A stretch of 64,000 nt of DNA from assembly GCA_015065685.1 (NCBI GenBank), contig SVPU01000005.1:1-64000 (forward strand). Reading direction: 5' to 3'. Numbering within the stretch: position 1 is the first letter of the stretch; each line of letters begins with the position of its first letter. A program made the position numbers and the translations under genes. Source of the stretch: Oscillospiraceae bacterium (GTDB lineage: Bacteria; Bacillota; Clostridia; Oscillospirales; Acutalibacteraceae). Under the pieces are notes generated by a model. That model was given only the letters and a program-made list of their open reading frames with translations. It had not been told where the DNA came from and did not search any database. This document shows, one piece after another, positions 61,388 to 61,898 of the stretch.

Positions 61388-61464
61388 GCGCTGATAGCTC
61401 AGCTGGATAGAGCGTCTGGCTACGGACCAGAAGGTCGGGAGTTCGAATCTTCTTCAGCGCGCCA
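61388..61464 (+). tRNA. tRNA-Arg (anticodon ACG), CCA encoded
   Basis: The acceptor strands GCGCTGA and TCAGCGC pair fully, with G as discriminator and an encoded CCA. The D-arm is TAGCTCAGCTGGATAGAGC. The anticodon stem TCTGG/CCAGA holds the loop CTACGGA, giving ACG for CGN codons. The T-loop GTTCGAATC is standard. A terminator hairpin begins at once after CCA, and a tandem repeat derived from the tRNA 3' end follows. Confidence 0.97.
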
Positions 61465-61856
61465 ATAAGGAATCTACTAAAAAGTAGGTTCCTTATTTTT
61501 TATTTAATAGAAAGAAGATGAGAACTCCCGAAAGGGAGTCGTCGAAGCAGCCAAGACGCAAAGCGTGTTGGCTGCGAAGTCTCGAGTACGAACAATTTTT
61601 CGTTCACCGCTGAGAGCGGTCGAAAAATTGGAGAGCGCAGAGTATCTTCTTCAGCGCGCCAATAAGGAATCTACTAAAAAGTAGGTTCCTTATTTTTTAT
61701 TTAATAGAAAGAAGATGAGAACTCCCGAAGGGAATCGTCGAAGCAGCCAAGACGCAAAGCGTGTTGACCGCGAAGTCTCGAGCACGAACAATATGTCGCT
61801 CACCGCTATGAGCGGTCGACAGATTGGAGAGCGCAGAATACCTTCTTCAGCGCGCC
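61447..61856 (+). repeat. Tandem repeat of 197/196 bp seeded by the tRNA-Arg 3' end
   Basis: Two units lie end to end after the tRNA, and each ends with a copy of its 3' end (CTTCTTCAGCGCGCCA at 61449, 61646 and 61842). From 61447 to 61532 the sequence is identical to 61644-61729 (86 nt, including the terminator). Each unit holds three hairpins; in unit 1 these are 61524-61539, 61547-61575 and 61593-61630. At 61513-61531 and 61710-61728 a 19-nt stretch is the reverse complement of tRNA positions 61435-61453 with two mismatches. No ORF is evident. I do not recognise the element. Confidence 0.85.
61464..61498 (+). terminator. tRNA-Arg terminator, copy 1
   Basis: The stem AATAAGGAATCTAC/GTAGGTTCCTTATT has one G-T pair and is followed by T6. 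The same hairpin recurs at 61661-61695 and, with changes, at 61857-61896. Confidence 0.85.
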
Positions 61857-61898
61857 AATAAGGAATCTACTTTAAAGTGGGTTCCTTATTTTTTTATT
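61857..61898 (+). terminator. Terminator hairpin, copy 3, ending the tRNA repeat array
   Basis: The hairpin AATAAGGAATCTACTTT/AAAGTGGGTTCCTTATT followed by T7 closes the array. Its stem is longer than in copies 1 and 2 because the loop A's have become pairing T's. Confidence 0.8.

Follow-up and report, generated by a model that had tools for sequence, protein, structure and literature searches.

Directly behind a tRNA-Arg(ACG) gene in the genome of an Oscillospiraceae bacterium lie two tandem units of nearly 200 bp, each closed by a copy of the 3' end of the same tRNA, and the question is what kind of element these units represent. The window analysed here is a stretch of 64,000 nucleotides at the start of contig SVPU01000005.1, and all features described for it lie on the forward strand. 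The host gene is intact (61388..61464, called by ARAGORN and scoring 62.7 bits with the Rfam tRNA model) and is followed by a terminator-like hairpin and a T-run (61464..61497). Then come unit 1 (61512..61652, core and arms, 113.5 bits and E = 1e-33 with our covariance model R1), a copy of the tRNA's final 18 nt (61644..61661, 18/18 identical) and a second copy of the terminator (61661..61694), followed by unit 2 (61709..61848, 105.5 bits), another copy of the tRNA tail (61840..61857, 17/18) and a third copy of the terminator (61857..61890). The repeat spacing is 197 bp and then 196 bp, and unit 1 and unit 2 are 93% identical over 197 nt. The earlier note on this DNA, made from the sequence alone, had described tandem units that each restore the tRNA tail and its terminator, and this description stands, with the terminator hairpin present three times. 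The units contain no open reading frame of 60 or more amino acids (a 65-aa antisense frame overlaps the last terminator only), and the same check found no integrase gene within them. We found no promoter-like site in unit 1 and one weak site inside unit 2 (9/12), and in a scan of the window with Rfam 15 only tRNA exceeded its gathering score.

Fold and covariation of the units

The stretch that opens unit 1 (61512-61531) is an inverted copy of the T-arm and acceptor strand of the tRNA (61435-61454), with 90% complementarity over 20 nt; such a reverse complement had been noted before and is real. Its first eight positions (61512..61519) match the inverted 3' strand of the T-stem and the start of the acceptor strand in 8/8 positions, and form the left arm of a closing stem, P1, whose right arm lies in the copied tRNA tail. 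Hairpin P2 (61524..61539) consists of an inverted and a direct copy of the 5' strand of the T-stem, and is followed by hairpins P3 (61547..61575) and P5 (61593..61630), both of which contain covarying helices. The minimum-energy RNA fold of unit 1 has a predicted free energy of -63.1 kcal/mol (z = -5.2), a value as low being reached by 0/200 shuffled sequences. In this fold P1, in which the inverted tRNA 3' strand pairs with its direct copy, encloses P2, P3 and P5 side by side; the three hairpins proposed earlier are thus present, but they are not nested in one another as had been thought. The changes reported for the third of them, which is P5, are readable in the sequence, one T-A pair having become G-C and another pair an A-G mismatch between the units. 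With DNA parameters the three hairpins were kept and P1 was lost.

The test of a covariance model and of covariation that the earlier note had proposed was carried out with R1, which was built from 13 units, and gave a positive result. In an alignment of 87 distinct core sequences, 95.7% of 2905 cells were standard pairs, two-sided changes were found in 32 of the 36 pairs, and none of 500 shuffles reached any of the measures, keeping in mind that this alignment was fitted to the model and so favours the model's pairs. Sliding the partner columns by 1-3 positions lowered pairing to 36-46%, and two-sided changes were already present in 20/36 pairs of an unfitted alignment of 13 sequences. As modelled, the core is a four-way junction with strong covariation.

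Wobble pairs were counted against A-C mismatches in the stems. With all pairs included there were 136 G-T against 29 A-C; when two G-T-rich end pairs, picked post hoc, were left out, the counts were 38 and 28, compared to 96 and 6 in tRNA stems at the same loci. Wobble exceeded A-C in P3/P4 (33 vs 12) but not in P5 (5 vs 16), and stood at 13 vs 4 in the 40 best-scoring rows. For 13 units of a second type, described below, the counts were 74 and 7, with a structure that itself permits G-T. Our first idea was that the stems are DNA-like; the wobble counts, which vary by helix and unit type, do not firmly favour either RNA or DNA.

Distribution, targets and matching ends

Units with this core (type 1) are not confined to the window. 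R1 found five matches at three loci in the window's own genome and, across the genus, 40 matches spread over 21 of 70 genomes, with further matches in 11/295 genomes of the order (4/148 genera), 12/391 of the class (7/222 genera) and 5/398 of the phylum (3/267 genera), the window's genome being included each time; stricter filters applied to any search of more than 40 genomes, which makes the genus, order, class and phylum counts lower bounds. Scanning named contigs for a pattern returned 95 stretches, many of them by chance, and 25 of the 44 that were scored with R1 reached at least 90 bits. These 25 are titled Oscillospiraceae, Ruminococcaceae or Clostridia bacterium, and come mostly from ruminant-gut metagenome assemblies. 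In the phylum sample, one genome (G1090) has two units behind tRNA-Ser, 184 bp apart, and three genomes of a single genus (6.5-7.3 Mb) have versions only 88 nt long behind tRNA-Ser, tRNA-Arg or tRNA-Glu. These phylum matches are weak (20-37 bits), with the sequence read at two loci, and were accepted mainly because they have the same position and the same letters; in their predicted folds P1 and P2 are in place in the G1090 unit and missing from a short unit of G1059. Recurrence of the core at many other loci contradicts a local chance duplication.

Gathering-score Rfam scans of the Clostridia loci returned only tRNA, 6S, 5S and the lysine riboswitch, no family reached its gathering score over any type-1 unit in the relatives scanned, and E-value scans added, beside tRNA and rRNA, sub-gathering matches only. 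Among 50,697 phage records, 30 match the window stretch, and the 20 matches listed cover only its tRNA part. None of 72,556 plasmid records matched a sister array (L003) used as query. A pattern scan of viral contigs gave six places, which we take to be chance because R1 scores none of them above 11.8 bits.

The placement of the units was examined for 88 matches from 82 chosen sources, of which 12 lie at contig edges and 76 are testable. Of these, 70 adjoin a tRNA or tmRNA gene: 49 start no more than 90 nt downstream of such a gene and on its strand, eight are later units of arrays behind such genes, and 13 have a mirror form before tRNA-Gln(ttg); the remaining six have no called tRNA nearby. 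In the usual form the targets comprise 17 kinds of tRNA or tmRNA gene. One unit that seemed an orphan adjoins the 3' side of tmRNA, and its right arm equals the T-stem strand of that gene.

The ends of the units follow the local gene. This was measured on 46 of 58 aligned units, the other 12 being excluded for gaps or for want of a CCA-ended gene upstream. For the 8-nt right arm, the local gene was the best of 38 possible in 37/46 units, and 333/368 positions agreed (at most 241 over 1000 permutations). The match was looser for the left arm, the local tRNA being the best in 16/46 units and 242/368 positions agreeing (permutation maximum 211). An earlier count on 48 units, in which the best of nearby offsets was taken and cut units were included, gave 6.9/8 for the right and 5.7/8 for the left arm, compared to 4.3 and 3.8 with swapped tRNAs. 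In some copies (L019, L170) the inverted arm comprises the whole tRNA 3' end and lies directly behind the terminator. Some left arms, for example at L007 and L057, match another tRNA better than the local one; we do not claim them as traces of a donor, since chance matches are expected with 38 tails and several fixed letters.

Cores are shared across targets, with identities of 89-95% behind different tRNAs. The cores at tRNA-Ser(tga) and tRNA-Arg(acg) in one genome are 89% alike, and those at tRNA-Tyr and tRNA-Gln(ctg) in another are 90% alike. Among 79 cores compared, 49 nearest-neighbour pairs had a known tRNA on both sides; 20 of them joined the same tRNA in different genomes, 18 different tRNAs in different genomes, seven different tRNAs in one genome, and four the same tRNA within one genome. 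That different tRNAs carry near-identical cores supports a change of target, and the 20 pairs at the same tRNA in another genome fit descent in place equally well.

Occupation of a given site is patchy. A search of the genus for the downstream gene, aimed at an empty site, gave nine places in 8/70 genomes, and the tRNA-Arg itself was used instead. The exact tRNA was matched at 34 genus loci, and in the 30 that were read by eye, each in a different genome, a type-1 unit stands in two, type-2 units in eight, remnants in two and an integrase-like fragment in one; 17 have none of these, and some of the 17 carry other repeats.

The type-2 units have a different core and the same kind of ends, and are the commonest kind at the genus tRNA-Arg(ACG) loci read. 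They were seen at L003 (two units), L194, L011, L057, L140, L252, L257, L259, L264, L266, L268, L270 and L273, the second unit at L252 being without a core. Further unit kinds stand behind Lys, Met, Pro, Ser(gct) and Arg(ccg) tRNAs in the window's genome, several with cores that look unrelated to type 1 by eye, and other cores were seen behind Met, Ser, Arg and Lys tRNAs at L185, L197, L201, L218, L219, L223, L161 and L168. Copies of the tRNA tail, allowing up to four mismatches, followed 6/24, 2/23 and 6/20 of the tRNAs fetched from three genomes (one of the last six being merely the next tRNA-Ser), compared to 20/1219 in a control with swapped tails. Several loci (L188, L189, L193, L195, L199, L200, L273) carry a palindromic repeat with arms like TACTTTTTACCTCTTCACT directly behind the tRNA terminator, part of which is repeated on its far side. 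At L173 and L179 (G196) a common sequence of about 100 nt breaks or replaces part of the core and may be a nested element. At L049 (5927-6074) the left arm fits tRNA-Arg and the right tail equals that of tRNA-Ser(gga), as recombination between loci or an assembly error might produce. Upstream of tRNA-Arg(ACG) at L005 (G004) lie four tandem, shortened copies of the 5' half of tRNA-Arg.

In the mirror form the core sits in the apparent T-loop of an extra 5' part of tRNA-Gln. This was found at 13 loci (L127-L135, L143, L166, L167 and L020), all at tRNA-Gln(ttg) and mostly between tRNA-His and tRNA-Gln; the extra 5' part with its core mostly ends in an acceptor-strand hairpin upstream of the real tRNA-Gln. 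An intact tRNA-Gln follows 26-34 nt downstream in 11/13 loci, and in five of the 11 measurable loci the 55 nt before the core are identical (55/55) to the 5' part of the local tRNA-Gln. In the usual and the mirror form alike one tRNA is intact and one side of it is duplicated, which indicates the T-loop as the point of insertion.

Likeness to the tRNA-linked repeats of Escherichia coli

The closest known counterparts are the tRNA-linked repeats (TLRs) of E. coli, first described in 1978, for which PMC8144298 cites Egan and Landy 1978 and Rudd 1999. The parts of that paper used here describe 22 units at ten loci in K-12, with one to five units per locus, a position between terminators at proK and rrnB, and a 3'-terminal stretch of 18-19 bp identical to the corresponding end of the tRNA or rRNA gene upstream (PMC8144298). 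The window units resemble them in the identity of the tail to the upstream gene (18/18 and 17/18), in the number of units directly behind the gene (two), in their position behind a terminator and in the occurrence of several loci per genome. Unlike the E. coli repeats, the Clostridia units also stand behind tmRNA and have a mirror form upstream of tRNA-Gln, their cores have diverged beyond detection by Rfam, and their hosts are Clostridia plus a handful of genomes from elsewhere in the phylum. Our literature search, mostly of open-access papers and without the name "tRNA-linked repeat" as a query, listed no title that reports TLRs in Clostridia.

The E. coli units at tyrT, tyrV and proK, which are RtT units of Rfam family RF00391 (rttR), have the same anatomy as the Clostridia units. 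Their order is an inverted tRNA arm, TGAGAA, a P2 made of T-stem pieces, GGTTC, the core, GAGTA (GAATA at tyrT) and the tail; the arms follow tRNA-Tyr and tRNA-Pro, and the tyrV and proK units fold with P1 and P2 at the same positions. The Clostridia units have in common with RF00391 the inverted arm, TGAGAA, the P2 hairpin, GGTTC and the GAGTA before the tail, but the rest of the core differs, and the Rfam consensus structure is without P2. Partial views of two further sources mention a tandem GA motif in RtT RNA (PMC7657543) and, in a table, the Salmonella rtT RNA as a 175-bp repeat of variable number (PMC2658671). In E. coli, short TLR-like stretches with tail copies were also seen behind argV, argZ and argQ of the argV-argY-argZ-argQ cluster (L303), where RF00391 is silent.

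Model comparisons were made in both directions. RF00391, with a gathering score of 45 bits, gave no match in the window at E-values up to 10. With filters off, R1 was run on seven E. coli stretches (13,907 bases), and its five best places were all RtT (three units at tyrV and, at proK, the left ends of the unit and of the remnant), at weak scores of 14.2-7.7 bits (E 0.001-0.13). Homology of the window units to the E. coli units is likely on these matches, but weakly so. By anatomy, and given the silence of the Rfam RtT model on the window, the units look like a divergent variant of the TLR class and not like members of RF00391.

Copy number at proK could be compared directly between strains. 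Some match to the locus occurs in 5375 of 5426 E. coli genomes, and five records that were read have zero, one or two full units, differing by exact 168-bp steps: K-12 has one full unit and a remnant, two records have a remnant and no full unit (one of these cut by an IS element), and the other two have two full units, in one case with a remnant. Recombination between direct repeats is the plain reading of these steps, and by analogy may also have changed the copy number of the window array.

A mobile-element reading and its alternatives

We consider it somewhat more probable than otherwise that the units are divergent TLRs in the form of small, gene-less mobile elements, which insert at the T-loop and duplicate one side of the host gene. 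Such an origin, which the earlier note had offered as a minimal tRNA-anchored mobile repeat, fits the copies at different tRNAs, the ends matched to the local gene, the patchy occurrence, the shared cores and the variation in copy number in E. coli. A tRNA or tmRNA gene would receive the core at its T-loop, probably in one step, and the insertion would duplicate usually the 3' part of the gene with its terminator, as in the window, and sometimes the 5' part, as upstream of tRNA-Gln; because one side is duplicated, the host gene would stay whole. The arms would be copied from the target at insertion rather than by later gene conversion, the enzyme would act in trans, and tandem copies would be gained or lost by recombination between the direct repeats of tail and terminator. 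RNA of the unit would be expected mainly through read-through of the terminator. We take mobility here from the presumed products of movement, as preserved in the sequences, and not from movement itself. Counted against this reading are the poor fit of many left arms to the tRNA beside them, the six of 76 matches with no called tRNA, and the lack of a copy in the phage matches listed and the plasmid records searched. No candidate enzyme was found when RVT_1 reverse transcriptase and Y1 transposase were tested in 30 carriers and 30 non-carriers: RVT_1 was present in 7/30 carriers vs 10/30 non-carriers and Y1 transposase in 17/30 vs 10/30, these sets being hand-picked from earlier lists and a non-carrier being a genome without a type-1 match, so that several may hold other types, and the status of one (G044) perhaps resting on a DNA search alone. 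Neither gene was detected at E 1e-6 in the window's genome, which is 91% complete.

The strong covariation of the core could instead have another meaning, namely a function for the host. The unit would then be a small RNA, read through from the terminator and processed by tRNA enzymes, that binds a protein or an RNA. In the portion of PMC8144298 consulted, three TLRs behind 5S rRNA, conserved in Enterobacteriales, are reported to be transcribed by read-through and to bind Hfq and CsrA in vitro, and the excess of wobble over A-C pairs in P3/P4 and in the type-2 units also suits an RNA. The same portion of the paper gives TLRs no known function, states that an early proposed role in starvation was retracted, and reports modest effects only on deletion of the rrn-linked repeats (PMC8144298). 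This alternative also has to accommodate 49/70 genus genomes with no match under strict filters, units tied to many unrelated tRNAs, and the near lack of promoter-like sites in the window units; we regard it as unlikely. A narrower version, in which the RNA regulates tRNA-Arg by pairing with it, had been suggested by the 20-nt complementarity to the T-arm. That stretch is the unit's own closing stem and P2, the core stands behind 16 other kinds of tRNA or tmRNA gene with arms that match those genes, the units lie behind terminators, and type 1 occupies only two of the 30 genus tRNA-Arg loci, so that this proposal is barely credible.

Integrases that attach at tRNA and tmRNA genes likewise leave a duplicated gene tail at the junction. 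The 18-bp tail copy might then be the attachment core of a gene-less cassette integrated by a tyrosine integrase, an idea in keeping with the targeting of tmRNA and with a fragment behind the same tRNA-Arg in another genome (L260, G010) that by eye resembles the end of a tyrosine integrase and has its own tail copy. Yet the units are very short, have no gene in the window and have arms fitted to each tRNA, and a site-specific recombinase would have difficulty in switching to new tRNAs with matching arms. Such an origin also leaves P2 and the inverted arm unexplained, and what is shared at the right junction is not the entire T-loop but just the AT preceding the T-stem; we judge this origin quite improbable. 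A SINE-like retroelement, in which a reverse transcriptase supplied in trans copies a read-through transcript whose 3' end resembles a tRNA and the copy is inserted, would account for a sense-strand fold that includes the tRNA 3' end, and at L019 and L170 one long palindrome runs through the tRNA tail, the terminator and the inverted tail, as snap-back copying would give. With RVT_1 absent from the window's genome and from 23/30 carriers, and not enriched among them, this is very unlikely. As identities, group I introns, known ribozymes, attC sites and Y1-type ends also came into consideration and were not adopted.

Returning to the reading as mobile elements, a wider form of it can be put forward tentatively, as a possibility we would not yet call probable: that TLRs are one widespread, gene-less mobile class, found from Gammaproteobacteria to Clostridia and beyond, whose four-way-junction core may enter the T-loop of any CCA-ended RNA gene, the closing stems being rebuilt from the target so that the gene always survives, and whose moving form may be a folded single strand handled by a putative enzyme. 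The Clostridia copies add to what is known from E. coli: diverged units can be compared by the dozen across 17 kinds of target gene (tRNA or tmRNA), the fold is backed by covariation, the match of the arms to the adjoining tRNA is supported by statistics, and the mirror form indicates insertion at the T-loop. They turn an old curiosity, in the literature since 1978, into testable questions: what moves the TLRs, and in which form.
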